Origin: Verrucomicrobiales bacterium
GTDB lineage: Bacteria; Verrucomicrobiota; Verrucomicrobiia; Verrucomicrobiales; DEV007
Length of the DNA: 64,000 nt
Direction of reading: 5' to 3'
Assembly (NCBI GenBank): GCA_029213065.1
Contig: JARGPH010000014.1
Location: 352 to 64,351, forward strand
Under the pieces are notes generated by a model. It saw only the letters and a list, made by a program, of their open reading frames with translations. It was not told where the DNA came from and did not search any database. Positions 42,843 to 59,758 of this stretch are shown in pieces (position 1 is the stretch's first letter; every line of letters begins with the position of its first letter). The translations under genes and the position numbers were made by a program.

Positions 42843-43604
42843 ATGGGCAACATTTTTCCACGTTGGACAAACCTTCTGGCGGTCAAACTCCTCGTGTGTC
42901 TGGGAGCTCTTGGCACGTGCGTTATCGCTGTGGCATGGTATTCATGGACACCGAAATACACCCGCGTAGGCTATATGCCGCAGCAGCCGATACCTTTTGA
43001 TCACAGCCTTCACGCAGGGCAACTGGGGATGGACTGTCGATACTGTCACACCCATGTCGAGAACTCGCTTCATTCGAACATTCCCGCCGCTGAAGTGTGC
43101 TGGAATTGCCACGGAGCCGGCAAGGTGAAGTCCGATTCTCCCAAGCTTGAGCCATTGCGCCAGGCGATGGATGAGAATTACGAGAATTTCACCGGTGAGC
43201 CGATCAAGTGGGTGCAGATTCACAAGACTCCCGATTACGCCTACTTTGATCACTCGGTTCACGTAAATCGCGGGGTGAGTTGTGTGGAGTGTCACGGTCG
43301 CGTCGATGAGATGCCGGTGGTCTATCACGCTAAGTCCCTCAGCATGTCGTGGTGTCTTGATTGTCACCGGGATCCGGCGGCGAACCTGCGCCCTCTCGAT
43401 GAGATTACCAATCTGGACTGGACGGCAGAGGATTTGGACAAAGATCAGTTTTATGCTGAGCTCGCCGGTAAGACCGGGGCAAAAGTGGAAGAGCTTAAGG
43501 CGGCTGATGAAGGTAAAGAGTGGAGTCGCGAGTTGATCGGGGCTCACCTCAAGGAGGCTTGGCAGATTCATCCCCCACAGGATTGTGCAGCGTGTCACCG
43601 ATAG
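42843..43604 (+). CDS. actA: Alternative complex III pentaheme cytochrome ActA
   Basis: 253 residues with an N-terminal membrane anchor (about 11-35) and five heme-binding CxxCH motifs: CRYCH, CWNCH, CVECH, CLDCH and a C-terminal CAACH. Number, spacing and anchor match ActA, which receives electrons inside ACIII. HSLHAGQLGMDC and YFDHSVHVNRGVSC supply the additional His ligands typical of the family. It is the first gene of the ACIII/oxidase operon, just after a palindromic putative operator. Confidence 0.95.
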   Translation: MGNIFPRWTNLLAVKLLVCLGALGTCVIAVAWYSWTPKYTRVGYMPQQPIPFDHSLHAGQLGMDCRYCHTHVENSLHSNIPAAEVCWNCHGAGKVKSDSPKLEPLRQAMDENYENFTGEPIKWVQIHKTPDYAYFDHSVHVNRGVSCVECHGRVDEMPVVYHAKSLSMSWCLDCHRDPAANLRPLDEITNLDWTAEDLDKDQFYAELAGKTGAKVEELKAADEGKEWSRELIGAHLKEAWQIHPPQDCAACHR

Positions 43605-43644
43605 GGTGAGGGAGGCAATTCGGAACGATTTGATACTTATTTGA

Positions 43645-46600
43645 ATGAAGCGAAAGTGGAATCATCCTGCAGAAACTGAGAGTTCACGAGCTCACTGGAG
43701 AAGTCTTGGGGAGCTTGAGGGCTCGGAAGAATTTGAAGGCTGGCTTGAGCGTGAGTTCCCTCAGGGAGCGAGAGAGCTGGAGCTCGATGAGACTTCACGA
43801 CGCAGTTTCGTGAAGTTGATGGGGGCTTCGACGGCACTTGCCGGTTTCGGCGTCGCCTGTAAGCGTCCCCTGCAACACCTGGTGCCTTACAACGAGCACG
43901 TTGAGTGGGTGATTCCCGGTAAAGCGCTTTTCTATTCCACGGCAAAGCCGCGGCTGAGCGGGATCGGTTGCGATCCGCTCGTGGTGACCACCTACGAAGG
44001 GCGGCCTACCAAGGTTGATGGAAATCGGCTTCATCCTGCTGTGATGGGCGGTTCTTCGGCGTTTACGCAGGCGTCTGTGCTTGAGATGTATGACCAGGAC
44101 CGGTCACGCGGATACTTTGAGGGTGATAAGCCCTCCACTTCGGATGCGTTTGGTGCTGCGGTGCTTGCTCCTTTGAAGGCTGCGGCCGCGGGCGAGAAGC
44201 TGGGGTTAGTATTGTCACAGTCGACTTCACCTCTTCGCCACGCTCTTATTAAAGAGGTGCAGGCGGCATTTCCGGGCGTTCGTCTTTACGGGTATGGTGC
44301 TCTCGATGGGTCTGGCGGTCGCGCTGCGGCTGAGCTGGTTCACGGTAAAGGTGCTGTGCCGGTTGTTAATTTCTCGACCGCGAAGCGCGTTCTCTCACTC
44401 GATTGTGATTTCCTCGGCGATGACGCTGTCGGTGAAGATTCTCAGCGTGAGTTCGCTGCGACAAGAGATGTGGAGAAGAATCCTGATATCAGCCGTCTTT
44501 ACGTGGCTGAGTCGGCTTTCACTTTGACGGGTGGAATGGCGGATCATCGTTACCGCACTCCCGCTTCGCAGATTTTCCCGATCACGGCTCTGGTTGCTCA
44601 GGAAGTGGCTTCACTTACGGGTGATGCGGCTCTCGGCACGCTGGCTGAGAAGGCTCTCGCCAAGGCGGTTAAGTCTGTCTATCGCCTCGATTGGATCAAG
44701 GAATGTGCGGCTGATCTGGTTGCCTCAAAGGGCGCTTCCGTGGTTGTTGCGGGTGGTCGTCAGTCCGGTGCAGTTCACGCGCTCGTTGCCGGTATCAACA
44801 ATGCTCTGGGAGCGTTTGGTGGCATCATCTCGGTTCGTAAGCACGAGCTTCCCGAGCTTAATGATGTGGTTGCTCTCGCGTCTGATTTGGAATCCGGTTC
44901 CATCGAGACGCTTGTGGTGATGAATGACGGCGATCTCGCTTTCGATGCGCCTTCAGATCTGGGACTTAAGAAGTTGCTTTCGAAAGTGCCGACAGTGGTT
45001 CATCTCGGTTATCGCCGCAATGAGACAGCCAAGTTGGCCGGATGGCATGTTCCCAAGACGCACTATCTCGAATCCTGGGGTGATTGCCTCAGCCTGTCCG
45101 GGGTTTACTCGGTTCAGCAGCCGATGATCAACCCGATGTGGGGTGGTGTTTCCGATGATGCTTTTCTCCTTTCGCTTCTCGCTGATGATGCTTCACAGGA
45201 AGCGCTTCTCGGTCGGGTAAAGCAATCTTTCGCCGCGGCGGGAGGTAAGAAGTGGAATGAGGCTCTTCGTGACGGCTTTGCGAAAGAGATTGAGCCAGCT
45301 CCTCCGGTGACGGCGGTGAATGTGGCGGCTGCAGCTCCGCTTTTCGATTCCGTGAAGATCGCCGATTTTCCTCATGAGGGCGGCATCGAGGTTTCTCTGG
45401 TTGCCGGCAGTGCCACTTACGATGGGCGCTTTGCCAACAATGGGTGGCTTCAGGAGGCTCCGGATCCGATCACGAAATTGACCTGGGATAATGCGGCTTT
45501 GGTCAGCGTTTACACGGCAGAGGCTCTCGGTCTCGAGAATGAAGATCTCATTGAAATCGTTGTCGGCGATCGCAAGGTGATCGCGCCTGTGTTGAAGGCT
45601 CCGGGTCACGCTGATTTTACGATTTCAATTGCACTGGGTTATTACGGCGATCTCGCCGAAGGGACTGTCAGTAAAGGGGTCGGTTACAATGCCTACCCGC
45701 TCATGACTTCAAGCCAACCATACGTGGTTGGCGGCGCTACGGTTCGCAAGGCCGGTGGCACCAATAAGCTGGCTCTCACTGCTGAACACTACAGCATGGA
45801 AGGTCGTGCAATCGCCCGTGAAGGTACGGTCGAGATGTATAAGGAGCACAGCGATTTCGCCGGGCATCAGGGGATGGATCACCACATTCCCGAGAATATG
45901 TCTCTTTATAAGGGGGCTGACTATGAGAATGGCGGCACTCAGGCGGAGAATAAATTCATCAAGCAGATCCCGGGGCATGAGTTCCGCGTCGATCTTCTCC
46001 ACCAGTGGGCGATGACGGTTGATCTGAATACCTGCACCGGTTGTAACGCTTGTGTTATCGCGTGTCAGGCCGAGAACAATATCCCTATCGTCGGGAAAGA
46101 TCAGGTTCTCGCCGGCCGAGAAATGCACTGGATCCGGATGGATCGCTATTTCACGAGTCCGAAAGACGCCGAGACGGTCTCCGAGCGCGGCACGGCCCTC
46201 GACTATCTGGTCGGCGCGGAGTCTACCAAAGACACACCCGGTCAGCGGACTGTCGATGATGATCAGGTTGAAATGATTTCTCAGCCGGTCGCCTGTCAGC
46301 AGTGTGAGAGTGCTCCGTGTGAGACGGTTTGTCCGGTGAATGCGACGGTCCACACCGCTGATGGCTTGAATGCGATGGCTTACAATCGTTGTATCGGAAC
46401 GCGTTACTGCGCGAATAACTGCCCGTATAAGGCACGTCGTTTCAACTACTACGACTACAACAAGCGCCCGATCGATAAGATTGAGCTCGGGCCGCTTGCG
46501 CCTGCAGAGGGGAATGCAACCACGACTCAGGGATTGCAGAAGAACCCCAACGTTACGGTTCGTATGCGTGGTGTTATCGAGAAGTGCACCTACTGTGTTC

Positions 46601-46905
46601 AGCGTATCACCGCCGCTAAGATCGCGGCGAAAGCAGCAGCGCGCGATTCTGATGATGTTCAGGTAAAAGCGAATTCGTTTACGGTGGCATGTCAGGATGC
46701 CTGTGGTGCTGATGCGATTACTTTTGGTAACAAGAAAGCGAAGGGAGATAAAATCCTCGATGCGAAGAATAATCCTCGCAACTACGACCTTTTGAAGTAT
46801 ATCGGCACCCGTCCGAGGACGAGTTATCTCGCTCGTATTAAGAACCCGAATCCGAAGATGCCGGGAGCTGACCAAGTCGGCACAGTGACATCAAAAATGC
46901 ACTGA
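43645..46905 (+). CDS. actB: Alternative complex III iron-sulfur/molybdopterin-like subunit ActB
   Basis: 1086 residues. A Tat-like signal (SRRSFVKLMGASTALAGFG) lies at about 52-70. The large N-terminal half resembles a molybdopterin oxidoreductase, but family members bind no Mo cofactor there. The C-terminal third (from about residue 795) is a ferredoxin-like domain with four Cys clusters: CTGCNACVIAC, CQQCESAPCETVC, CIGTRYCANNC and CTYCVQRI...CQDAC, for [4Fe-4S]/[3Fe-4S] centres. It passes electrons between the quinol-side membrane subunits and ActA/ActE. Confidence 0.95.
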   Translation: MKRKWNHPAETESSRAHWRSLGELEGSEEFEGWLEREFPQGARELELDETSRRSFVKLMGASTALAGFGVACKRPLQHLVPYNEHVEWVIPGKALFYSTAKPRLSGIGCDPLVVTTYEGRPTKVDGNRLHPAVMGGSSAFTQASVLEMYDQDRSRGYFEGDKPSTSDAFGAAVLAPLKAAAAGEKLGLVLSQSTSPLRHALIKEVQAAFPGVRLYGYGALDGSGGRAAAELVHGKGAVPVVNFSTAKRVLSLDCDFLGDDAVGEDSQREFAATRDVEKNPDISRLYVAESAFTLTGGMADHRYRTPASQIFPITALVAQEVASLTGDAALGTLAEKALAKAVKSVYRLDWIKECAADLVASKGASVVVAGGRQSGAVHALVAGINNALGAFGGIISVRKHELPELNDVVALASDLESGSIETLVVMNDGDLAFDAPSDLGLKKLLSKVPTVVHLGYRRNETAKLAGWHVPKTHYLESWGDCLSLSGVYSVQQPMINPMWGGVSDDAFLLSLLADDASQEALLGRVKQSFAAAGGKKWNEALRDGFAKEIEPAPPVTAVNVAAAAPLFDSVKIADFPHEGGIEVSLVAGSATYDGRFANNGWLQEAPDPITKLTWDNAALVSVYTAEALGLENEDLIEIVVGDRKVIAPVLKAPGHADFTISIALGYYGDLAEGTVSKGVGYNAYPLMTSSQPYVVGGATVRKAGGTNKLALTAEHYSMEGRAIAREGTVEMYKEHSDFAGHQGMDHHIPENMSLYKGADYENGGTQAENKFIKQIPGHEFRVDLLHQWAMTVDLNTCTGCNACVIACQAENNIPIVGKDQVLAGREMHWIRMDRYFTSPKDAETVSERGTALDYLVGAESTKDTPGQRTVDDDQVEMISQPVACQQCESAPCETVCPVNATVHTADGLNAMAYNRCIGTRYCANNCPYKARRFNYYDYNKRPIDKIELGPLAPAEGNATTTQGLQKNPNVTVRMRGVIEKCTYCVQRITAAKIAAKAAARDSDDVQVKANSFTVACQDACGADAITFGNKKAKGDKILDAKNNPRNYDLLKYIGTRPRTSYLARIKNPNPKMPGADQVGTVTSKMH

Positions 46906-46940
46906 TCTTACGATCCGGAATTTTGACTATTTGATCTACC

Positions 46941-48383
46941 ATGGCAGATACCAACACAGCAAAGACGAGCATGCACCCTACTGAAGTAGAGGGTATCGCG
47001 CGTGAGCCCCTGGTGCTTAACAATCGGTCTTTGGGATGGATTACGGACCGCATTTGCGGCATCGTTGAAAACCGTCAGCCTTTCATCTGGTGGGTGCTTT
47101 TCGTTCCTTCAGTGGCGCTCTTCAGCTGTCTCCTTTTCACGCTGGTTTACCTCGTTTCAACGGGTGTCGGTGTGTGGGGGAACAACCAGCCGGTGGCCTG
47201 GGGTTGGGCGATTGTAAACTTCGTTTTCTGGATTGGTATCGGCCACGCCGGGACCTTGATTTCCGCGATTCTGTTCCTCACCCGTCAAAAATGGCGGACC
47301 TCGGTGAACCGGGCTTCGGAGGCGATGACGCTGATCGCGGTGATGTGCGCCGGTATTTACCCCGGTTTTCACGTGGGGCGTTTCTGGATGGTCTGGTTCC
47401 TCGCTCCGATTCCCAATGCGAACGGTATCTGGCAGAACTTCAAGAGTCCGCTGCTCTGGGATGTCTTCGCTGTCTCAACTTACTTCACGGTTTCGGTGAT
47501 CTTCTGGTATATCGGTCTCATCCCCGATCTCGCGACCCTGAGGGATCGTGCGAAGAAGAAGGTTCCCAAGTTTCTCTACGGATTTTTCGCTCTCGGATGG
47601 CGTGGAGGTAACCGTCACTGGCGTCACTACGAGATGGCTTATCTGCTTCTTGCGGCGCTTTCGACTCCGCTGGTTCTCTCGGTGCACTCTGTGGTCTCGT
47701 TCGACTTCGCGACCTCAGTGGTTCCCGGCTGGCACACCACCATTTTCCCTCCTTACTTCGTGGCGGGAGCTGTTTTCGGTGGCTTTGCGATGGTGCTGAC
47801 TTTGATGCTTCCTGTTCGCAAGCTTTACGGACTCGAAGACATGATTACCCACAAGCACGTGGATAACATGACGAAGATTATTCTCCTTACGGGAACGATC
47901 GTCGGATACGCCTACATCATGGAGCTGTTCATCAGTTACTACGGTGCGAACAAATACGAGACCGATGCTTTCCACATCAGGATCCTCTCCGGTCCTTACA
48001 CCTGGGCATACTACTGCATGTTCTTCTGTAACGTGATTGCTCCGCAGATCTTCTGGATGAAGTGGGCCCGTCACAATCTCTGGGTCGTCTTCATCGTCGT
48101 GAACTTTGTGAATATCGGAATGTGGTTCGAGCGTTTCGTGATTATTCCGACGTCGATTGCCCGCGACTTCCTGCCGGGGCAGTGGGGTTACTATTCTCCT
48201 TCCTGGGTTGAGAAGCTTATGTTCCTCGGAACCTTCGGAATGTTTATGATGTTGTTCCTTCTCTTTATCCGTTTTCTTCCGGTGATTGCGGCAAGTGAGG
48301 TGAAGGGTGTTCTGCCGGAATCTGACCCCCACTATCCGGAGTGGAAAAAGTTGCGTGAGAAACGCAGGCAGTCAGAGCGCTAG
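46941..48383 (+). CDS. actC: Alternative complex III quinol-binding membrane subunit ActC
   Basis: 480 residues, an NrfD-like polytopic protein with about 10 TM helices. The family's [27 protein letters not shown] segment holds the conserved His-Ala-Gly near the quinol site, and [14 protein letters not shown] and [12 protein letters not shown] are also typical ActC stretches. It is 35 bases after actB, with no Shine-Dalgarno sequence before its ATG. It oxidises menaquinol or ubiquinol and is paired with ActF. Confidence 0.95.
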
Positions 48384-48411
48384 TTTTTTAATTTAAGTAA
48401 ATACGGGAACC

Positions 48412-48969
48412 GTGAGTGATTCATCAGTCAGTTCAAAAAACCTTTTCGGGTATGTCGCAGAGTTTGCCAATGCGACGGATCTCTATCATGCCGCTGAGAA
48501 GATGCGTGATGGTGGATTTCGCCGATGGGATGTGCATACGCCGTATCCGGTTCACGGAATGGATCATGCAATGGGTCTTGGGAAAAGTTGGTTGTCCGCT
48601 ATCGTTCTCGGTGGCGGTGTGACCGGGTTCTCGATCGCACTCTTTATGCAGTTTTTCACGCAGGTAGCTCTTTATCCGACGATCGTTCAGGATAAACCGA
48701 CCAATCTGTTCACGGTGCCGGCGTTCTTCCCGGTGACCTTCGAGCTCACGATTCTGCTTTCAGGATTTGCGACAGTGTTCGGTCTCCTCGGTATCATGAT
48801 GCTGCCACGATGGAATCACCCTCTTTTCAATTCGAAGCTCTTTTCAAAATTTTCAGATGATGGGTTCATCATGGTGATCGAAGCGCGCGATCCGAAGTTC
48901 AAGCGGGAAAGAACCCGTGAGTTCCTCGAGGAGATCGGTGCTGAGAAAATCGAGGAGGTTGCTTACTAA
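48412..48969 (+). CDS. actD: Alternative complex III membrane subunit ActD (DUF3341)
   Basis: 185 residues from GTG 48412. The N-terminal soluble part (NLFGYVAEFANATDLYHAAEKMRDGGFRRWDVHTPYPVHGMD) is the DUF3341 signature, followed by two TM helices (about 61-85 and 105-130) and a cytoplasmic tail (FIMVIEARDPKF...EFLEEIGAEKIEEV). Size and motifs match ActD. It lies between actC and actE in the standard ACIII order. Confidence 0.93.
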   Translation: MSDSSVSSKNLFGYVAEFANATDLYHAAEKMRDGGFRRWDVHTPYPVHGMDHAMGLGKSWLSAIVLGGGVTGFSIALFMQFFTQVALYPTIVQDKPTNLFTVPAFFPVTFELTILLSGFATVFGLLGIMMLPRWNHPLFNSKLFSKFSDDGFIMVIEARDPKFKRERTREFLEEIGAEKIEEVAY

Positions 48970-48982
48970 TCAGGTTCTCACA

Positions 48983-49606
48983 ATGCGTTGGTTTTTTCTA
49001 GTTTTAGCAATTGCGGTGGTCGCGACGATTTATGCGATCGGGCCGCGCGGTGAAAAGTTTTCGGATCCTCCGTTCGAGCTCTTTCCTGATATGGATCATC
49101 AGTTCAAGTTTCGTCCGCAGGAATCGAGTCAGTTTTTCGCGGATGACCAGGTAGCTCAGAAGCCGGTCACGGGAACGGTGCCACTCGGATATTCGCTTCC
49201 GCATGCAGGGAACGACGACGATCTCGGCAGCGACCTCGCCTATTCAAGCGGCGACAGCTATTTCAGCACGGGGCAGTTCGGTGATTTTTACGGCAAGGGC
49301 TACCCCAAAGAAGTGACCCTGGATGCAGCACTGGTGAAGCGGGGACAGGAGCGCTTTCAGATTTTCTGCACACCGTGTCACGGTGAAACCGGTGACGGGC
49401 AGGGGGTTGTTTCCAAATACTGGGCAATTCCCCCAACCGCAAACCTCATCGACGCCCGCGTATCGGCGCTGCCTGAGGGACAGATTTTTTCCACGATTAC
49501 TCATGGCAAAGGGCTCATGGGACCTTACAACGGTGTGATTCCGGTGAAGGATCGATGGGCGATTGTTTCGTACGTGAAGTCACTACAGAAGGCTTCCGGT
49601 AACTAA
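48983..49606 (+). CDS. actE: Alternative complex III monoheme cytochrome ActE
   Basis: 207 residues from ATG 48983; an earlier in-frame start inside actD would add a basic, non-signal extension. A membrane anchor or lipoprotein-like helix (MRWFFLVLAIAVVATIYAIG) precedes a class-I cytochrome c domain with CTPCHG (about residue 130) and a distal Met in GKGLMGPY. It is expected to hand electrons from ACIII to the oxidase or another cytochrome. It starts 13 bases after actD. Confidence 0.92.
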   Translation: MRWFFLVLAIAVVATIYAIGPRGEKFSDPPFELFPDMDHQFKFRPQESSQFFADDQVAQKPVTGTVPLGYSLPHAGNDDDLGSDLAYSSGDSYFSTGQFGDFYGKGYPKEVTLDAALVKRGQERFQIFCTPCHGETGDGQGVVSKYWAIPPTANLIDARVSALPEGQIFSTITHGKGLMGPYNGVIPVKDRWAIVSYVKSLQKASGN

Positions 49607-49636
49607 TTTTGTATTTACTAATTTTTCCTAAGACTT

Positions 49637-51154
49637 ATGGCGGGATTAAAAGATGGCGATGATTTTAAGGACGGAGAATCCTTCAAGAATCCTCTTATCC
49701 TCAAGGGAGTGTTCGGCCTCGTTGGTTTTGGAGGGTTGGCTCTATTTGTAGCACTCAATTTTCTTCTCCCGGAGAAGAGAGGGGAGATGTCATACAGCTG
49801 GCTCTTTGCCCTGGTTTTCTTTCTTTCGCTCGGAGTGGGCGGCGTTTTCTGGACGCTTCTTCACCACGCCACCAACTCAGGTTGGGGGACGGTGATTCGC
49901 CGTTTGATGGAGAATTTGGGAAGTGTGATTCCTTTCATGCTCTTGTTGGCGGTCCCGTTCCTGATTCCAAACGGTTATCAGGATGATCTCTGGGAGTGGT
50001 TTCCAAAACGCGAAGCGGCCCTTGAGAAAGCGGAAGTTGCGGCGGAAAAGGGCGTCTCCCAATACGTGACCGAAAAGCAGGCGGAAATCGCCGGTGCGGA
50101 AGCAGCGGTGGCGTCTGCCGAGGCTGAGCTTGCCGCGATCGAGTCACCGAGCGCCGGTCACCGTGCGCACTTTGATCGCAAGATCGAGTCACTGAAGACG
50201 AAGCTCGCTAAGCTTCAGGAGCAGGATCTCTCCGAGGCTGCCGTCCACGAGACACTCGTCGATAAGAATTTCAAAAAGGAGGAAGCCCTTCTTCATGTGA
50301 AAAAGGGATATCTCAATGAAGGGTTCTGGTATGTGCGGTTCTTTTTCTATCTGATCGTGCTGTCCGGTATCGCTCTTGCGCTCCGTCACTGGTCAATCAA
50401 ACTCGATAAGAGCGGTGACCCGGGACTGTTTCTCTGGATGCGCCGGGCGAGCTGTGGATTTCTTCCTTTCTTTGCAACCGCGTGGACCTTCCTCGTTTTT
50501 GATTGGCTCATGGCTCTCGATTACACCTGGTTCTCGACGATGTGGGGTGTTTATCTTTTCGCCGGTGCTGCGCTCAACTCGATGGGGCTTCTCGTCATCA
50601 TCGTGACGCTCCTCCGTCACTTCGGATACCTCAAGAATATCGTGACGCTCGAGCACTACCATCTCATGGGTAAGCTGATGCTCGCTTTCGTAATCTTCTG
50701 GGCTTACATCGCTTTCTCTCAGTTCTTCCTCATCTGGTATGCGAACATTACCGAGGAAACGAAGTTCTATCTGACTCGTAACACCGAGTTCTGGAACCTC
50801 TACACGATCACTCTGCTGGTGGTGGGGCACTTCTTCGTTCCTTTCGCGATTCTCCTGCTCCAGAAAGTGAAAAAGCTTCCACTGGTCCTCTCAGGTGTCG
50901 CGGTTTGGAATCTGGTCATGCACGTTTTCGACATCTACTGGATTATCATTCCTGAGCGCGGTCCTTCTCTGACTGCTGCAGGGCCTGCCAAGGATATGCT
51001 CATGGTGATGCCCGGTGCATGGTTGTTTGATGTTTTAGCCTTTGTATCAGTTGCCGGGATCTTCGGTTTCTGTCTCCTCTGGCGCCTCGGATCTGCAAGT
51101 CTCTTCCCGTGTCGTGACCCTCGTCTCGATGAGTCCCTTAACGTAGTGAACTGA
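49637..51154 (+). CDS. actF: Alternative complex III membrane subunit ActF with coiled-coil insertion
   Basis: 505 residues, NrfD-like, about 10 TM helices. The core resembles ActF (SLGVGGVFWTLLHHATNSGWG, YLNEGFWYVR, WFSTMWGVYLFAGA). Between TM3 and TM4 about residues 124-205 form a charged, Ala/Glu/Lys-rich helical stretch with heptad-like spacing (AALEKAEVAAEKG, AEAAVASAEAELAAIES, KIESLKTKLAKLQEQ) that is not part of the usual subunit. It probably makes a coiled-coil arm that contacts neighbouring complexes. Confidence 0.92.
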   Translation: MAGLKDGDDFKDGESFKNPLILKGVFGLVGFGGLALFVALNFLLPEKRGEMSYSWLFALVFFLSLGVGGVFWTLLHHATNSGWGTVIRRLMENLGSVIPFMLLLAVPFLIPNGYQDDLWEWFPKREAALEKAEVAAEKGVSQYVTEKQAEIAGAEAAVASAEAELAAIESPSAGHRAHFDRKIESLKTKLAKLQEQDLSEAAVHETLVDKNFKKEEALLHVKKGYLNEGFWYVRFFFYLIVLSGIALALRHWSIKLDKSGDPGLFLWMRRASCGFLPFFATAWTFLVFDWLMALDYTWFSTMWGVYLFAGAALNSMGLLVIIVTLLRHFGYLKNIVTLEHYHLMGKLMLAFVIFWAYIAFSQFFLIWYANITEETKFYLTRNTEFWNLYTITLLVVGHFFVPFAILLLQKVKKLPLVLSGVAVWNLVMHVFDIYWIIIPERGPSLTAAGPAKDMLMVMPGAWLFDVLAFVSVAGIFGFCLLWRLGSASLFPCRDPRLDESLNVVN

Positions 51155-51183
51155 TTGCTTTCGAGTTTTTGTAATAACTTTAT

Positions 51184-51657
51184 ATGAGTGGTTCAGCCCC
51201 CATTTCAGAGTCAAAAGTGAAGCGTTTCATCGGAACGCTCGGTATCTTTGTTTTCTTCGGTTTTCTCGCACTGATTCTTTTTCAGAATGCAGGGAGTGAA
51301 TCTCTCGAGGATCGTGCCGCCCGTGGCGATTTCGACGAGGCGACAACGCAAGCGCGTTGGGAGAATCTGAAAACAGTGACAGAAGCCCAGTCGGTCGATG
51401 CGAAGAAAATCGAGGCCGCGATGGCAGCGGTTGCCAAGACACCGGTCGCACCTGCGAAAACCGACTTGGTCGTTCCGGGATCACCTACCTTTTTGAAGCA
51501 AATGGAGGCGCCGGCCAAGCCTGAAGCCAAGCCTGAAGCCAAGCCTGAAGCCAAGCCTGAAGCCAAGCCCGAAGCCAAGCCCGAAGCCAAGCCCGAAGCC
51601 AAGCCTGAAGCCAAGCCTGAAGCTAAGCCCGAAGCCAAGCCTGAAGCCAAGAAGTAA
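51184..51657 (+). CDS. Membrane-anchored protein with KPEA repeats
   Basis: 157 residues: one TM helix at about 15-36, a short soluble region (ESLEDRAARGDFDEATTQARWENLKT), and a C-terminal tail of eleven KPEA units ending in KK. No domain was recognised. It sits 29 bases after actF and before the CcoN-like gene, so it is probably a small accessory subunit or spacer protein in the respiratory supercomplex, with its extended tail on the periplasmic side. The repeat number may vary between strains. Confidence 0.8.
   Translation: MSGSAPISESKVKRFIGTLGIFVFFGFLALILFQNAGSESLEDRAARGDFDEATTQARWENLKTVTEAQSVDAKKIEAAMAAVAKTPVAPAKTDLVVPGSPTFLKQMEAPAKPEAKPEAKPEAKPEAKPEAKPEAKPEAKPEAKPEAKPEAKPEAKK
51517..51648 (+). 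repeat. Eleven 12-bp tandem repeats coding KPEA
   Basis: The unit AAGCCTGAAGCC (with synonymous variants AAGCCCGAAGCC and AAGCCTGAAGCT) is repeated eleven times without interruption inside the small membrane protein. The differences are only at third codon positions. Confidence 0.97.
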
Positions 51658-51696
51658 GGCGGCCAGGTATTCTACGAAAAATATTATCACGTTCTC

Positions 51697-53157
51697 ATGA
51701 CATCTGAACACCCAACGCCTGAGGAAATGAGCGAAAGAGCGGCGATTGACCGCTCTGCCCGCTTTCCCGTGCTGTTTTTCTTCACAAGTGCAGCAGCATG
51801 GCTTCTTGTTGCTACGTTGCTGGGTTTCTTCAGCTCTTTGAAGCTGAGTGTCCCCGGTCTCTGGGATAACTGTCAGTTTCTCGGCTATGGCCGTCTTTTC
51901 CCCGCCCACATGAACGCCCTTGTCTACGGTTGGGCGATGCAGGCCGGACTGGGTGTGGTGCTCTGGCTTATGGCGAGACTGAGCCGCAACAAGATTGAGC
52001 ATCCTGTCGCCATTATCGTTGCCGGAGCCCTCTGGAATGCCGGCGTAACCCTTTCCGTGATCACGGTGTGGTTCGGATTTGGTAATTCGATGCCGCTCCT
52101 CGACTTTCCGGCCTGGGTATGGCCTATCCTTGCAATCTCCTACGCGTTGATCGTCGTGTGGATCCTGCCGATGTTCCGTCAGCGTGGCGAATCACTCATC
52201 TATGTCTCTGAGATGTTTGTCCTCGGTGCCGTTGTCTGGTTTCCGTGGATCTTCATCACCGCAAACCTCCTTATCAATAAAGGAACCGCCCCGGTTATGG
52301 CTGCCGGCACCAATGCCTGGTTCATTACCAATCTCTCCTATTTCTGGATGGCTCCGATCGCACTGGCGATTGCCTACTACATCGTGCCGAAGATTTCCGG
52401 CCGCGCTGTTTTCAGTTATCCTCTCGCACAGGTGAGCTTCTGGCTCCTCGCCGCGCTTGCCGGCTGGACAGGGTTTGCCCGCTACATGGGTGGTCCGTTT
52501 CCTGCCTGGATGTCGGCGGTAAGCAGCACCGCTTCAATTTTCATCCTTCTCGCTATTATTGTGACAGTGGTGAACATTCTCATGACCTTGAAGGGAGCAA
52601 CCAAGATCTGGGAGTTCAGCCCGTCCTTGCGTTTCACCGTCTTCGGAATGTTGATGCTCGCGGCCTACGGTCTTCTCTCGGCAATCAGTTCGACTTACTT
52701 TTTCGGTAAGAATCTTCAATTCAGCCATTTTGTGGTCGGGCTCGACACGCTTGCTTTCTACGGTTTCTTCTCGATGACGGTTTTCGGAGCGATCTACTTC
52801 ATCGTTCCACGTATCACCGGAAGCGAGTGGCCTTCGGGTAAGCGCATTCGGACCCACTTCTGGTTCAGCGCTTACGGCATTATCACTTTAATCATCTGCA
52901 TGCTGGTTGGCGGTATCGCTCAGGGAGGAAACCTTGCTCAGTGGGACCAGGCGTTTTCGACCTCGTTCGTCACTTCTTCAGCATACGTCGCGGGGCGTTG
53001 CATCGCATGGGCTCTGATTGCATTCTCGAACCTCATGTTCCTTTACCAATTGGCGCTCATGTTTGTCGGCAAAGGGCGTAAATCAAGCGGACCGACTCTG
53101 ATTCATGCCGAGCCGGGTAAGGTTGAAAGCGCGAAAGCAGCTGCCGGTCTTAACTGA
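51697..53157 (+). CDS. CcoN-like protein lacking heme and copper ligands
   Basis: 486 residues with about 12 TM helices, homologous to cbb3 oxidase subunit I by overall pattern (GRLFPAHMNALVYGWAMQAGLG, SYPLAQVSFW, GAIYFIVPRITGSEW). Only His71 of the usual ligands is kept. The copper site W-Y-G-H becomes ITNLSYFWMAP, the His-His pair is absent (GFARYMGGPFP), and the heme HVH motif is replaced by VVGLDTLAF. It is unlikely to reduce oxygen. It is followed by CcoO-like and cytochrome c genes and precedes a complete aa3 oxidase, so it may be a structural or electron-transfer scaffold. Confidence 0.82.
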   Translation: MTSEHPTPEEMSERAAIDRSARFPVLFFFTSAAAWLLVATLLGFFSSLKLSVPGLWDNCQFLGYGRLFPAHMNALVYGWAMQAGLGVVLWLMARLSRNKIEHPVAIIVAGALWNAGVTLSVITVWFGFGNSMPLLDFPAWVWPILAISYALIVVWILPMFRQRGESLIYVSEMFVLGAVVWFPWIFITANLLINKGTAPVMAAGTNAWFITNLSYFWMAPIALAIAYYIVPKISGRAVFSYPLAQVSFWLLAALAGWTGFARYMGGPFPAWMSAVSSTASIFILLAIIVTVVNILMTLKGATKIWEFSPSLRFTVFGMLMLAAYGLLSAISSTYFFGKNLQFSHFVVGLDTLAFYGFFSMTVFGAIYFIVPRITGSEWPSGKRIRTHFWFSAYGIITLIICMLVGGIAQGGNLAQWDQAFSTSFVTSSAYVAGRCIAWALIAFSNLMFLYQLALMFVGKGRKSSGPTLIHAEPGKVESAKAAAGLN

Positions 53158-53189
53158 GAACCTTTGAATCGCGTAGAAAAATCATTTAT

Positions 53190-53810
53190 ATGAGTTCAAA
53201 CAAATTCTGGAAGTTGCTCGGCGCTCTTGGCGCGGTATTCGCACTCCCGTGGCTATTTCTCATCGTCATCCCATTCCTCAAAATGTCGAATGCCGAGCCG
53301 GTTCCTTATTCTGAGGAAGATGGTGTCGAAGGTATCGCGGCCTATCCGGACAAGACCCTGCAACGGCACGGAGCGAGCGACTACGGTCGTCAAATTTACG
53401 CTGCCGAAGGCTGCGCATACTGCCACACGCAGGTGGTTCGCCCTACCTACGCCGGCCCGGATATGTGGAGACCCGGCTGGGGTGGACGTGAAGAGGACGG
53501 GCTCGCCCGTGAAACTCAACCGGGCGATTACGCGACTGAGAAAGTGGCGATGCTCGGCTACCAGCGTATCGGCCAGGATCTTTCCAACGTGGGGCACCGT
53601 ATCACTTCCCGTGATCTGATGCATCAGCATCTCGTTGAGCCAAAGAGTCTCGATCCAAACTCGGGAATGCCGGCATACAAGCACCTTTACAAGAAATCTT
53701 CCATTGGCAGTGGCTATGTTCCTACAGGAAAAGCCGAAGCATTGGTGGACTATCTGATGTCTTTGAAGAAAGATCAGAAAATTCCGGGCGCTATCGTAAG
53801 CGGCAGCTAG
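53190..53810 (+). CDS. CcoO-like monoheme cytochrome c
   Basis: 206 residues. An N-terminal TM anchor (about 10-30) precedes the CcoO signature AAEGCAYCHTQVVRPT with one CxxCH (Cys75, Cys78, His79), GQDLSNVG and a distal MPAYKHL. The length is typical for CcoO. It partners the CcoN-like protein upstream, with which it starts 32 bases apart, and should carry one c-type heme in the periplasm. Confidence 0.92.
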   Translation: MSSNKFWKLLGALGAVFALPWLFLIVIPFLKMSNAEPVPYSEEDGVEGIAAYPDKTLQRHGASDYGRQIYAAEGCAYCHTQVVRPTYAGPDMWRPGWGGREEDGLARETQPGDYATEKVAMLGYQRIGQDLSNVGHRITSRDLMHQHLVEPKSLDPNSGMPAYKHLYKKSSIGSGYVPTGKAEALVDYLMSLKKDQKIPGAIVSGS

Positions 53811-53847
53811 TCCGCGAAACCAAATTTAATTTTAATCAGCTATCCAA

Positions 53848-54585
53848 ATGGGGAGCAACGAGAACAAAAACATCGATTACGATCAGGGAACCGTCAGCAC
53901 GGTTCAGTTGCATGACTCTGTTCGTCGTGAGAACGCCCTTCCACGTGAAGGGAGCGGCACCGTGGGCATTTCAATTATCGTGGTAAGCGCACTGGTCCTG
54001 ATTTTCGGTGGGGGGCAGCTTTTCAGCGGTGCCAACGGCTTTAGCGATAGCATTTACATTTCCGATTATTACAAGGCGGAGCCGAGACCTGCCCTCGGCG
54101 GTGACGGCGGCGATGCCGCAGCTGTCGCCTGGATTGATTCCTGGACCAAGGACGGTAAGAAAGTTTATGGTAACTGCATCGCCTGTCACCAGGCATCAGG
54201 GCTCGGAATTCCCGGTCAGTTCCCACCTCTCATCGGATCCGAATGGGTTGATGGTGGCACAGCTCGAATGGGGGCGATTCTCCTTCACGGAATCAGTGGT
54301 TCATTTTCAGTTGGCGGTCAGGCCTACAACGGTCTTATGCCGGCGTGGAACACGCTTTCCGATGAAAAAATTGCGCAGGTGGCCACTTACATTCGTCGTG
54401 AATTCGGCAGTCTCCCTGAAGGGGAGGACGGCGTAGTTACGACGGAGATGATCAAAGCGGCTCGTGAGCAATTCAGTGGTCAGGCAGTTCCTTATCAGGA
54501 AGCTGAACTGTTGGCGATTCCCGAAGGCGAGATGCTTCCGGGCGCAAAGGTGGACTTGCAGACGGGCGAACCGGCTGAAGGTTGA
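53848..54585 (+). CDS. Membrane-anchored monoheme cytochrome c (CcoP-like position)
   Basis: 245 residues. A soluble N-terminal ~40 residues precede a TM helix (about 42-60), then a class-I cytochrome c domain with CIACHQ (about residues 110-114), FPPLIGSEWV and the distal Met in NGLMPAW. It has a single heme where CcoP of cbb3 oxidases has two. A 45-residue acidic C-terminal tail follows. It probably shuttles electrons from ACIII or the CcoO-like protein to the oxidase CuA centre. Confidence 0.9.
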   Translation: MGSNENKNIDYDQGTVSTVQLHDSVRRENALPREGSGTVGISIIVVSALVLIFGGGQLFSGANGFSDSIYISDYYKAEPRPALGGDGGDAAAVAWIDSWTKDGKKVYGNCIACHQASGLGIPGQFPPLIGSEWVDGGTARMGAILLHGISGSFSVGGQAYNGLMPAWNTLSDEKIAQVATYIRREFGSLPEGEDGVVTTEMIKAAREQFSGQAVPYQEAELLAIPEGEMLPGAKVDLQTGEPAEG

Positions 54586-54663
54586 TATTAAAGGATCTCA
54601 ATCCGAAAACATTCAAAGACGGGGGTTTATCTCCACTCCTTATTAACGTAATTTAGACTTTCA

Positions 54664-56592
54664 ATGAGCGCAGCTACAGCAGAAACACACGATCAGGCTC
54701 AGGAGGAACATCATCATGTTGAGCCTTTCTGGAAGAAATATATTTTCTCCACCGATCACAAAACCATTGGAATTCAGTACGGTTTCACCTCGCTGGTCTT
54801 TCTCGCGTTCGGGTTTTTCCTGATGATGGTGATGCGATGGAGCATCGCCTACCCGGATCGCGCGGTTCCATTGCTCGCTGACTGGCCCTGGTTTCAAGCC
54901 TGGCTCGATGACAGCGGGAAAGTGACCGGCGATCTCTACAATATGTTCGGTGCGATGCACGGAACGATCATGGTTTTCCTCGGAATTGTTCCGCTCGCGT
55001 TCGGGGCATTCGGTAACTACGTGACGCCCTTGCAGATCGGTGCGCCTGATATGGCGTTCCCCCGTCTCAACATGGCGAGTTACTGGCTCTACCTTCTCGG
55101 TGGTGTGCTCATGTTCGTCAGTTTCTTTCTGCCTTCCGGCGCGGCCAAGGCCGGTTGGACGAACTATTCACCTCTCGCAACGACGACGGATATTCACTAC
55201 GGGGACCTTTTCTGGACGGGGCAGACCCAATGGCTCGTCGCGATGGCCCTGTTGATCACCTCGTCGCTTCTCGGTGCGGTGAACTTCATCTGTACCATTA
55301 TCAACCTGCGATGCCGCGGGATGAGCTGGATGCGTCTCCCGTTCTTCGTCTGGGCGATGCTCGTGACCGGTTTCCTTCTTCTTCTGGCGTTCCCTCCTCT
55401 TGAGGTCGCGGCGATCATGCAGCTCATGGACCGCATGGCGGGAACGAGTTTCTTTGTTCCGACCGGTCTCAATGTCAGCGGGATGTCCTTCGACGCCGCC
55501 GGAGGTGGTAGCCCGCTTCTCTATCAGCACCTTTTCTGGTTCCTCGCTCACCCCGAGGTTTACGTTCTGATTCTGCCTGCGCTTGCGATCGTGGCTGAAA
55601 TTATCCCCTGTAACACCCGGAAACCGCTCTGGGGCTACAAGACAATGGTCTACGCCGTGATGGTGCTCGGATTCCTCGCCTTTATCGTGTGGGCGCACCA
55701 CATGTACATCACCGGAATGGGGCCTGCGATTTCCACGTTCTTCCAGACCACGACAGTGCTGATCTCGGTGCCTTCGGTGATTCTGATCACCTCACTCCTG
55801 ATTTCCATGTGGGGCGGTTCGATTCGCTTCAATGTGCCGATGCTCTTCGCGACTGCGTTCATCCCCATGTTCGGTATCGGTGGACTTACCGGTTTGCCAC
55901 TTGCCTTCAGTCTTCCTGACCTGCACCTCCACGACACCTATTACGTGATTGCCCACTTCCACTACGTGGTCGCTCCCGGCACGATCTTCGGTCTTTTCGC
56001 AGGGATCTATCACTGGTATCCGAAGCTCACCGGGCGCATGATGAGCACCCGTCTCGGGCACCTTCATTTCTGGCCTTCATTGTTGTTCATGAACGGCATC
56101 TTTGCCCCCATGTTCATTCAGGGGATGGCTGGATTTCACCGCCGTGCCTTTGACGGTGGTAAGGCGTATGAGCAGATCAGCACGCAAATTTTCGCCGAGC
56201 CGAATACGTTTCTCGCCAACATCGCCGAGATTCTCAATGTGATTGAGCCGGATGCGGCCCTCCGTATGATCGATCTGAACATCGTGACTTCCGGATCCGC
56301 CTGGTTGCTCGCCGTGTTCCAGGTTCCTTTCATCATCAATTTGTTCATCAGCAAGTTTGTCGGCAAGAAAGTGAGCAGTGACAATCCGTGGGACGCAACC
56401 ACTCTCGAGTGGGCCACTCCAACGCCTCCGCCGCACGGGAATTTCCTTTCCGAGCCGGTTGCGTATCGTGGACCCTACGAGTATAGCGTGCCGGGTGAAG
56501 CGAGTGATTTTTGCCCGCAGTTCGAGGACGATCCTTCCAAGATCCCTGCCAAGAGCGAAGCCGGCAAAGAAGGTGATAAACCCGCCGTTTAA
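54664..56592 (+). CDS. ctaD: Cytochrome c oxidase subunit I (aa3-type)
   Basis: 642 residues, 12 or more TM helices. All key ligands are visible: low-spin heme His in FGAMHGTIMVF, copper His plus cross-linked Tyr in LAHPEVYVLILP (with the Glu that marks A1-type), the His pair in WAHHMY, and heme ligands in HDTYYVIAHFHYVV. The C-terminal ~90 residues are soluble. It is the real oxygen-reducing enzyme of the locus, in contrast to the CcoN-like gene upstream. Confidence 0.97.
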   Translation: MSAATAETHDQAQEEHHHVEPFWKKYIFSTDHKTIGIQYGFTSLVFLAFGFFLMMVMRWSIAYPDRAVPLLADWPWFQAWLDDSGKVTGDLYNMFGAMHGTIMVFLGIVPLAFGAFGNYVTPLQIGAPDMAFPRLNMASYWLYLLGGVLMFVSFFLPSGAAKAGWTNYSPLATTTDIHYGDLFWTGQTQWLVAMALLITSSLLGAVNFICTIINLRCRGMSWMRLPFFVWAMLVTGFLLLLAFPPLEVAAIMQLMDRMAGTSFFVPTGLNVSGMSFDAAGGGSPLLYQHLFWFLAHPEVYVLILPALAIVAEIIPCNTRKPLWGYKTMVYAVMVLGFLAFIVWAHHMYITGMGPAISTFFQTTTVLISVPSVILITSLLISMWGGSIRFNVPMLFATAFIPMFGIGGLTGLPLAFSLPDLHLHDTYYVIAHFHYVVAPGTIFGLFAGIYHWYPKLTGRMMSTRLGHLHFWPSLLFMNGIFAPMFIQGMAGFHRRAFDGGKAYEQISTQIFAEPNTFLANIAEILNVIEPDAALRMIDLNIVTSGSAWLLAVFQVPFIINLFISKFVGKKVSSDNPWDATTLEWATPTPPPHGNFLSEPVAYRGPYEYSVPGEASDFCPQFEDDPSKIPAKSEAGKEGDKPAV

Positions 56593-56648
56593 CCGGGGTT
56601 AGACCCCTTACCGAACGATTTAGAAGATTTTAGCAAGACGATTGCCAT

Positions 56649-58112
56649 ATGGAAATTCCACACGAAGTAACGCCGAGACGGGACACCGGTTTATACAATG
56701 CCAAGCTCGGCGTCTGGTTGTTCCTCGCCTCCGAGGTCATGTTGTTTGGCGGCCTCTTTTCCGCTTACATATTTTTGCGGGTCGGGATTCAGGACGGGGT
56801 TGATAACCCGTGGCCCTGGGGTCTCAACGTGCACAAAGACTTTGTCTGGCTCGGTTTCATCAATACCCTTGTACTCATCGCCTCCTCCGTCGGAGTCGTT
56901 TTCGCCTGGGTTGCCCTGAAAGAGCGGAATTGGAAGCTCTACCAGGTCTACATGTATGCGGTGATTGGTTGCGCCGTGATTTTCATGTGTCTCAAGGGGA
57001 TCGAGTACAACAGCAAGTTGAACCACCACTTCGGGATCAAGCTGAAGGACAACTCCGTCATGGAGGGGGAACTCGTGAACAAGACCGACCGGATTCGTTT
57101 CGAAGGAGCAACGGCCTCAGTCAGTCTGCAGGGCGCAGTGCCGGTCTTTATCAAAAGCATTCCGAAAGGGGAGTTCCCGATCTTCAAGGTGACCGAAGGA
57201 CCCGGCTCTGAAGAGGGGGTTGAAATCCATTCCGATTCTGAGTTGAAAGCGTGGTTCCACAAGGAGCGTCGCGCCATCTCGGCCAAACTCACCGAAGAGC
57301 GGAAGCGCTATCGTGCAGAGCTCGCCTCCGGGGTTGCCAATCCGACGCCGGTTTCGGTGAGCAGTTCAGCGAAGCTGACTTCAAGTGAGCCTTTTGTTCT
57401 CAACGCCAATCCCCGCAAAGTGGTTCTCCACAGCGACAGCGTGGTTAACTTCAAAGACGGTTCGAAAGTTGAGGGGAAACTGATCAGCGACGACGTCGAG
57501 TTCATCGTTCACGAGGTTGATTTGCAGCTCGTGCTTCCTCAAAAGCAGCGTGAGTCGATTGTCTGGGATGTCATCAACGACGAAGGCGCCAAGCAGCAGT
57601 TCTTTGAACAGCAGGACGCCGAGTATCGCCATCTCCGCGAATACTACGAGCCGCGTGGCGAGGTTATTCCCGAGAAAATGCTCCGTGGCCACATTCTGAA
57701 CCTCCACGACGTCCACCTCGGCGGGCATCATGGAGACGATCACGGTGATGATCATCATGACGCGGTTCATAAGAGCGAACCCAAGCCTTCCGCTGAAGGT
57801 GCCCACGAAGAGGCCGCTCACGAGCACGAAGATGATCACAGCATCAGTGTGCCGCGCGACCAGATCAAATTCATGGGGAACCACGGCCCCCGCTACGGCA
57901 ACTACTACGCGATCTATTTCACGATGACAGCGCTTCACGGCCTCCACGTCATCGGTGGTGCGCTCGTCCTCCTGTTCTTCACCGTCTTCGGGAAGAAGCT
58001 TTACCTGAAGAACCCGGAGCATCTCGCCAACCGCATCGAGGTGGGCGGTCTTTTCTGGCACTTTGTCGACTTGATCTGGATCTTCCTGTTCCCGCTCATG
58101 TATCTTCTTTAA
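56649..58112 (+). CDS. ctaE: Cytochrome c oxidase subunit III with long His-rich insertion
   Basis: 487 residues, more than twice the ~200 of short bacterial subunit III. TM helices at about 20-44, 65-90 and 97-118 ([21 protein letters not shown]) and again at about 415-448 and 468-486 ([32 protein letters not shown]) make up the normal protein. Residues about 122-415 are a soluble insertion holding two similar beta-rich segments ([26 protein letters not shown]), a helical part, and a His/Asp cluster [15 protein letters not shown] (360-374). This may bind copper or another metal. Confidence 0.93.
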
Positions 58113-58136
58113 TTTTTTATTCTATTTTCATTCATC

Positions 58137-58505
58137 ATGGCTGAATCAACTCACGACTGGGGAAAGCATAAGAAGTCTTATCTGATTGTTTTCGGAGCGC
58201 TTTGCTTCTGCACTTGTCTTACATTGGCGCTTGGTATTTTCGCCCCTTTTGATTTGGGCCCTCCGGGACCGACCCCTGCTGATTTCGTGATCGGCCTCGC
58301 GGTGGCCTGCTTCAAGGCAAGCCTCGTGGGACTTATCTTCATGCACTTAAATCACGAAAGAGGGCTGATTTACAAGCTGCTTGTTTTCACCTTTCTCTTT
58401 TCTCTCGGGCTCATGGCCCTGACCCTTTTCGCCGGTGCGGATCCCATTCTGGAGCAGTATGATACTCTGGAGAGCACCAAGGGGAAATTGATGGAGAAGC
58501 TCTAA
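58137..58505 (+). CDS. ctaF: Cytochrome c oxidase subunit IV
   Basis: 122 residues with three TM helices (about 15-35, 45-68, 78-100). The second holds the family's ACFKASLVGLIFMHL, typical of prokaryotic cytochrome c oxidase subunit IV. It is a small stabilising subunit 24 bases after subunit III, in the expected place. Confidence 0.93.
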   Translation: MAESTHDWGKHKKSYLIVFGALCFCTCLTLALGIFAPFDLGPPGPTPADFVIGLAVACFKASLVGLIFMHLNHERGLIYKLLVFTFLFSLGLMALTLFAGADPILEQYDTLESTKGKLMEKL

Positions 58506-58526
58506 AACCCCACACCCAAAAGTAAC

Positions 58527-58724
58527 ATGTCACTCAAACACTTTCATATCGCCTTCATCACCATCGTCGTCCTCGGCTCCTGGTCTTTAGGCGCCTGGTG
58601 TTTGCTGACGCGCGGGCTTCCCACGATGTTCACTGCGATGGGATGGGCCAGCCTCGTTGGTGGGCTCGGACTTCTCATTTACGGGGTTCGTTTCATGAAG
58701 AAAGTTCGCAAGGTGGTATCCTAG
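58527..58724 (+). CDS. Small two-helix membrane protein in the oxidase operon
   Basis: 65 residues with two TM helices (about 7-27 and 35-54) and a basic C-terminus (RFMKKVRKVVS). No family was recognised. It lies 21 bases after ctaF in the same direction, preceded by aaaagtaac with no Shine-Dalgarno sequence, and fits a minor oxidase subunit. Confidence 0.72.
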   Translation: MSLKHFHIAFITIVVLGSWSLGAWCLLTRGLPTMFTAMGWASLVGGLGLLIYGVRFMKKVRKVVS

Positions 58725-58733
58725 AAGAATCTG

Positions 58734-58943
58734 ATGATGAGCACGCTGTTACTTGAAAATATTCTCGCCTGCCCGATGTGCATGAGCGGCGCGGAGGGAA
58801 AATCCCTCCTCGCGGCCAACAGCGCCATCGGTGTGATGCTGGTCTTTCTCTTCACGATACTGGGGAGCTTTATTACTTTTATTATTTATCTCGCACGTCG
58901 TTCCCGGAAATTTGCCGGTGAACTCCCTGGCGAGGAGAACTGA
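58734..58943 (+). CDS. Small membrane protein with CPMC motif
   Basis: 69 residues with one TM helix (about 31-52). The segment ACPMCMSGAEG near the N-terminus has a CxxC pair that could bind copper or be redox-active, and the C-terminus is basic/acidic. It lies between the small membrane protein and subunit II, which carries the CuA site, so a role in metal delivery or assembly is a reasonable guess. No known family was assigned. Confidence 0.7.
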   Translation: MMSTLLLENILACPMCMSGAEGKSLLAANSAIGVMLVFLFTILGSFITFIIYLARRSRKFAGELPGEEN

Positions 58944-58993
58944 GGCTGAATCGAGTGTTCGGCTAACCGATCTTTTTACTGACAAATTTTGAT

Positions 58994-59758
58994 ATGATTG
59001 AGTGGATTAACGACATTTCCGGAATGCACGAGGTGGCTTCCCAGCATGGTAACGTGGGCAATCACATGTTGGCGCTGGTGCACTGGTTCATGCTCATCCT
59101 TTTTGTGGGCTGGTCTATATTTCTCGGGGTGATCCTCTGGAAGTTCCGCCGCAAGAAAACACCCCGTGCGAACTACCACGGAATGACTTCTCACTTTTCG
59201 ACACACGTCGAGATCGGGGTAGTGATCGTGGAAGTTGTCCTGCTCCTCGGATTCGCATTCCCACTCTGGGCAAAGCGGTCCGACAAGAATGCGCGACCTG
59301 TCGGTGATGAGGTCGTCAATCTCCGTGCGGTTGGTGAGCAGTATCGCTGGACCTTCCATTACGCCGGTGCTGATAAGAATGTCGGAATGACTTCTCACGA
59401 GCGGATTTCAGGAGCCAACCCGGTTGGACTCGTTGCAGAGGATCCCAACGCGGCTGATGACTTTGTTTCCGTGAATGAGCTGAAAGTGCCCGTGGGACGA
59501 CCCGTCGTCATTCAGGTGACATCGAAGGACGTGATTCACGGCCTCGCGATTATTCCGATGTTCTCTCAGCAGGATGCAATTCCCGGTTCGGAGATTCCGA
59601 TGTGGTTTGTTCCCGAAAAGGAAGGTGAGTGGAACATCGTTTGTGCTCAGCTTTGCGGAGCGGGTCACGCGCAGATGGTGGCCTACGTTGAAGCTGTCAG
59701 CAGCGAAGAGTTCGATGAGTGGTACGCCGCTCAAACTCCGCTTTTGCCTAAAAACTAA
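58994..59758 (+). CDS. ctaC: Cytochrome c oxidase subunit II (CuA)
   Basis: 254 residues. Two TM helices (about 25-50 and 70-92) precede the cupredoxin domain. The CuA ligands are visible: His in SKDVIHGL, then CAQLCGAGHAQM, giving Cys-x3-Cys-x3-His-x2-Met. No cytochrome c is fused at the C-terminus, so electrons must come from a separate cytochrome. The position last among the oxidase subunits is unusual, because subunit II generally comes first. A terminator follows. Confidence 0.96.
   Translation: MIEWINDISGMHEVASQHGNVGNHMLALVHWFMLILFVGWSIFLGVILWKFRRKKTPRANYHGMTSHFSTHVEIGVVIVEVVLLLGFAFPLWAKRSDKNARPVGDEVVNLRAVGEQYRWTFHYAGADKNVGMTSHERISGANPVGLVAEDPNAADDFVSVNELKVPVGRPVVIQVTSKDVIHGLAIIPMFSQQDAIPGSEIPMWFVPEKEGEWNIVCAQLCGAGHAQMVAYVEAVSSEEFDEWYAAQTPLLPKN

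Follow-up and report, generated by a model that had tools for sequence, protein, structure and literature searches.

Genes of the act cluster and the N-O-P module

The window analyzed here is a stretch of 64,000 nucleotides from the genome of a Verrucomicrobiales bacterium (contig JARGPH010000014.1). It contains an actABCDEF gene cluster for alternative complex III (ACIII), recognized by Pfam domains and gene order, followed by a linker ORF, three genes called N, O and P below, and the genes of an aa3 oxidase, all on one strand with short gaps (Table 1). A first-pass annotation had placed N, O and P at these positions and had judged the cytochromes encoded by O and P to look functional; the positions are confirmed, and both cytochromes look intact – O matches PF02433 and has a CAYCH, and P matches PF00034 and has one CIACH. 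Its description of the setting as an ACIII-aa3 operon is true of the window, but the module also occurs outside of such operons.

About ten Lys-Pro-Glu-Ala repeats are present in the linker ORF. Most relatives also have a one-TM ORF at this position, with a sequence that varies, and in two of them (L035 and L066) it bears a CXXCH. The CoxC protein (56649–58112) has 487 residues, with an insertion of more than 200 that includes an Asp/His-rich stretch; in relatives CoxC ranges from about 200 to 544 residues. A scan of 50900–54800 for promoters and terminators gave no more signals than shuffled sequences did.

Table 1. Features of the ACIII gene cluster and the N-O-P module in the window
Feature	Position	Strand	Evidence
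actABCDEF (alternative complex III)	42843..51154	+	PF14522, PF03916, PF11821, PF13442; conserved gene order
Linker ORF (one TM), after actF and before N	51184..51657	+	Lys-Pro-Glu-Ala repeats
N, ligand-less homologue of CcoN (polytopic, 486 aa, with the fold of CcoN)	51697..53157	+	PF00115, 144.5 bits
Codon of His71, the one ligand kept (first His of low-spin heme b)	51907..51909	+	Alignments
Thr211 in place of the CuB His	52327..52329	+	Alignment
Ala255 in place of the catalytic Tyr; Ala261-Arg262 in place of the CuB His-His	52459..52482	+	Alignment
Leu349-Asp-Thr351 in place of the heme b3 / heme b HVH	52741..52749	+	Alignment
O, CcoO/FixO-like membrane monoheme cytochrome c	53190..53810	+	PF02433, E 1.4e-15
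CAYCH heme motif of O	about 53412-53426	+	
P, membrane-anchored monoheme cytochrome c	53848..54585	+	PF00034/PF13442
CIACH heme motif of P	about 54175-54189	+	
aa3 oxidase genes coxA, coxC, cox4, coxB	54664..59758	+	

The N protein of the window

Seven cofactor or catalytic residues were checked – six His ligands and the helix-VII Tyr, which is the cross-linked Tyr of CcoN. The N protein of the window keeps only one, His71, which falls at the low-spin heme b position both in BLASTP against a CcoNO and in a phmmer alignment to solved CcoN chains. The copper-site motif WYGHN reads FITNL. The first-pass annotation had likewise stated that only His71 is kept, with the copper-site His, the His-His pair and both histidines of HVH replaced. 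The alignments place T211, A261/R262, L349 and T351 there, and A255 at the Tyr, and they agree with an alignment-free count of the six histidines that N has in total (5, 71, 102, 344, 387 and 470). The reference CcoNO is a canonical fused protein encoded elsewhere in the same genome with all ligands present; N is 24% identical to it (E 8e-22). The alignment with CcoN spans the length of N, and its TIGR00780 ccoN score of 103.6 bits is below the equivalog cut-off of 583 bits.

An AlphaFold2 model of N (pLDDT 88) has CcoN chains (3mk7/9g6b) as its best Foldseek matches, with TM 0.85–0.90, and in this model the protein retains the 12-TM CcoN fold. The comparison with CcoN structures and the modeling that the first-pass annotation had proposed thus gave a CcoN fold with no histidine at the heme b3 and CuB positions. 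Chance or sequencing error was rejected as the source of the ligand loss, because 80 further loci in the Verrucomicrobiales are ligand-less too and because dN/dS is 0.022 (rough, as dS is 1.9) between N and its 93% identical relative in L174.

Ligand states and their history in the Verrucomicrobiae

In a class-wide search, 178 of 236 Verrucomicrobiae genomes had matches to N, the weakest of which are probably ordinary CcoN; many of the genomes sampled are metagenome assemblies. Strong matches were limited to the Verrucomicrobiae in a phylum-wide sample. The actABCDEF-N-O-P arrangement is class-wide: N is accompanied by O in all 140 loci that were fetched, and N-O-P follows the act genes in all 40 wide loci. 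No N match was found in 22 of the 191 genomes that have ActD, which implies that N is not always needed.

The ligand strings are bimodal. All seven residues are present in 42 of the 140 loci, whose N proteins look like working oxidases, so fixation of the loss among ACIII-linked copies, a point that the first-pass annotation had raised, is contradicted. One locus has six residues, and 97 loci and the window have three or fewer. None of the seven is left in 42 of these 98 ligand-less copies.

Some loci and genomes have less usual states. In family f11 (L036, L084, L086 and L087), both histidines of low-spin heme b are kept and the b3/CuB site is lost, possibly an intermediate state. The locus with six residues, L093, retains ccoS and differs only in its first CuB His, which is Arg; this may be an early loss or an assembly error. 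The CcoN-like protein of L274 has all ligands and is encoded next to a CcoO-like one, and no ACIII genes were recognized in this locus; the same genome also has an ACIII-linked N that is ligand-less (L054). At five sites away from the N locus (G049:C17, G191:C114, G172:C216, G214:C17 and G175:C14), the distance between ActD and a high-scoring A-type CoxA is about 5 kb, and by their coordinates these are apparently ACIII operons without N. In the genus g2 genomes examined, which are of the same order and 2.2–3.5 Mb in size, ActD is very divergent or absent and there is no N.

The ligand state is matched by that of an adjacent gene. Of the 42 intact loci, 40 have a FixS/CcoS gene (PF03597) immediately 5' of N, versus none of the 98 ligand-less ones, the window included. 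One of the two exceptions (L105) is cut by a contig end; a motif search of the other (L106), where the N start had been called too early, gave no match. The presence of ccoS differed along with ligand state in 16 of 16 phylogenetically independent pairs (p 3e-5).

Changes of ligand state were counted on trees of ACIII subunits. The tree of N alone was rejected for this use, since its fast-evolving ligand-less rows attract each other. A tree of concatenated ActA-B-C from 40 loci requires a minimum of 10 changes of state, each imposed by branches with good support, and a single clade of ligand-less rows is rejected (p-AU 1e-100). An ActE-ActF tree of 131 loci has 20 changes, 16 of them on starred branches, though the exact count is rough because the tree was made with FastTree. 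Both states occur within each of five families. Parsimony alone gives no direction to these changes; they are read as losses because regain of seven residues is unlikely. One ancient loss followed by horizontal replacement of N-O-P by intact copies would agree with the N tree alone, in which most ligand-less rows fall outside the intact ones, but its long branches make that topology unreliable. The distances among intact N proteins correlate with those of ActF (r 0.92) and ActE (r 0.83), which speaks against frequent transfer, and the ligand-less L058 and L099 are nested among intact relatives of their own families. We consider this history very unlikely; ligand loss appears to have happened many times independently.

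The intact protein is the sole PF00115 protein in G008 and G145, which are 98–99% complete, and in G003; in G001 and G036 it is the only strong one besides a protein that, from its length and score, is probably an NO reductase. A search for bd oxidase (PF01654) found no match in G008, G145, G001 or G036 and weak matches in G003. Another strong PF00115 oxidase is encoded in 86 of the 87 genomes with a ligand-less N that were censused, and the exception (G230, 79% complete) has a bd oxidase. Since no heme-copper or bd oxidase besides intact N was found in two near-complete genomes, the ancestor of N-O-P was probably a functioning ACIII-coupled oxidase. The active-site Glu of C-type oxidases is absent from all 42 intact N proteins, which have Gln or another residue, and from all ligand-less ones, so the intact protein would be an atypical C-family enzyme with a predicted activity.

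Role of the ligand-less protein and relation to known systems

The ligand-less N genes are under purifying selection. Their NG86 dN/dS values are 0.02–0.24, similar to those of neighboring genes, and nearly all N loci have a full-length frame. Of the seven ligand columns, all invariant in intact N, five belong to the more variable ones in ligand-less N, while structural Gly, Pro and Trp positions are invariant there. That the ligand sites differ so widely among ligand-less copies might suggest a decaying relic gene without function. This is contradicted by the frames, the dN/dS values, the strict synteny and the invariant structural residues; the relic reading was rejected on selection and synteny and is extremely improbable.

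The heme c sites of the partner proteins are also kept. O has exactly one CXXCH in every locus examined, and P has at least one, with a single site in the window and in almost every relative. Axial Met residues were scored by alignment, as a strict MP motif is misleading. The axial Met of P is conserved in 138 of 138 aligned sequences. In O this column has Met in 43 of 43 intact-type loci and in 69 of 98 ligand-less loci; 22 of the 98 have Cys, so O may also shift its role.

The first-pass annotation had proposed a scaffold that bridges ACIII and the aa3 oxidase. The aa3 genes are directly downstream in the window and in most of its order, and CoxA is in cis more often in ligand-less loci (36 of 97) than in intact ones (7 of 42; Fisher p 0.017). 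However, CoxA is absent from the stretch read downstream in 61 of the 97 ligand-less loci and present in those seven intact ones, and once phylogeny is counted there is no association – 1.5 independent pairs go in the same direction, 1.5 in the opposite direction, and 13 have no difference. An in-cis aa3 oxidase is thus unsupported as the driver of ligand loss, and a specific bridge to it is unlikely. N seems instead to serve ACIII and its cytochromes. The scaffold idea fits better if N carries the cytochromes O and P on ACIII, and a putatively non-catalytic, cbb3-derived N tied to ACIII is strongly supported.

N could also be active in the membrane in some other way, for example in an ACIII-coupled ion path, or as a heme-b-only carrier in some lineages. 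His71 is retained in most Verrucomicrobiales copies, and the two low-spin heme b histidines are still there in family f11, which has no b3/CuB site. Against this, Thr351 replaces the partner His in the window, which makes a bis-His heme b impossible at that site, and the many copies with none of the seven residues have no such ligands at all. We regard this as rather unlikely.

We consider it probable that N is a recurrent pseudo-oxidase, the ancestral ACIII-coupled, cbb3-like N-O-P having become a membrane platform that supports O and P at ACIII. The ancestral N-O-P would have been an oxidase encoded together with ACIII and probably physically coupled to it, with electrons passing from quinol through ACIII, the hemes c of P and O, and heme b and heme b3-CuB of N to O2. 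In many Verrucomicrobiae lineages, including that of the window, other oxidases would have taken over O2 reduction, and N would then have shed its heme and copper ligands along with the maturation gene ccoS. Selection would have kept N most likely as a platform that retains the cytochromes O and P at ACIII, with electrons now exiting through them to aa3 or other acceptors. The physical association of N with ACIII is suggested here by gene order and co-inheritance. The evidence leans, somewhat less firmly, toward an oxidase subunit having become, within this one bacterial class, a metal-free structural subunit of ACIII in at least about 16 independent events, the assembly factor being lost in each. 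Many independent losses, each with ccoS loss and intact sisters, serve as natural replicates on the demands that ACIII makes of its partner, and they make the way in which ACIII hands on electrons directly testable.

The module resembles the cbb3 (C-family) oxidase, CcoNO(P) with CcoS, in the CcoN fold of N (TM 0.85–0.90) and the FixO/CcoO match of O, and intact loci have the CcoS/FixS gene and every heme and CuB ligand. It differs in that the N of the window is without six of the seven residues and without ccoS, and that P has a single heme site, whereas canonical CcoP is diheme. The intact proteins differ as well: four that were tested score 252–266 bits against the TIGR00780 cut-off of 583, and they have no active-site Glu, a mandatory feature of the C family (PMC5492636).

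ACIII-aa3 and ACIII-caa3 supercomplexes, in which electrons are passed directly, are described for Flavobacterium johnsoniae and Rhodothermus marinus (PMC5928083). In these, as in the window, oxidase genes follow the ACIII genes. The parts of the descriptions consulted mention no CcoN-like subunit, and the window has N.

The open-access papers searched contained no report of the ligand loss and nothing relevant on pseudo-oxidases or ligand-less heme-copper oxidases. A cbb3 or C-type oxidase beside ACIII is listed for verrucomicrobial methanotrophs and Opitutaceae (PMC8498564, PMC6688271, PMC11102522); the gene arrangement is that of N-O-P, and the two are very likely the same module. The methanotroph-like family f9, with pmoA in 12 of 12 genomes searched, presumably includes the published strains. 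The f9 protein at the place of the published 'cbb3' is ligand-less (L072, L173, L264–L267, L269 and L270; strings SESSHFV and ADAAHQT), and a profile search for another CcoN in four f9 genomes (G014, G023, G032 and G050) found none. Upstream of N in L267, only ActE and ActF were recognized; in a related methanotroph, the ACIII cluster is reported to contain a nos operon (PMC11102522). Some published annotations of a cbb3 oxidase are probably wrong: annotation by family counts ligand-less copies as high-affinity cbb3 oxidases, which are used to infer low-oxygen lifestyles, those of methanotrophs included.
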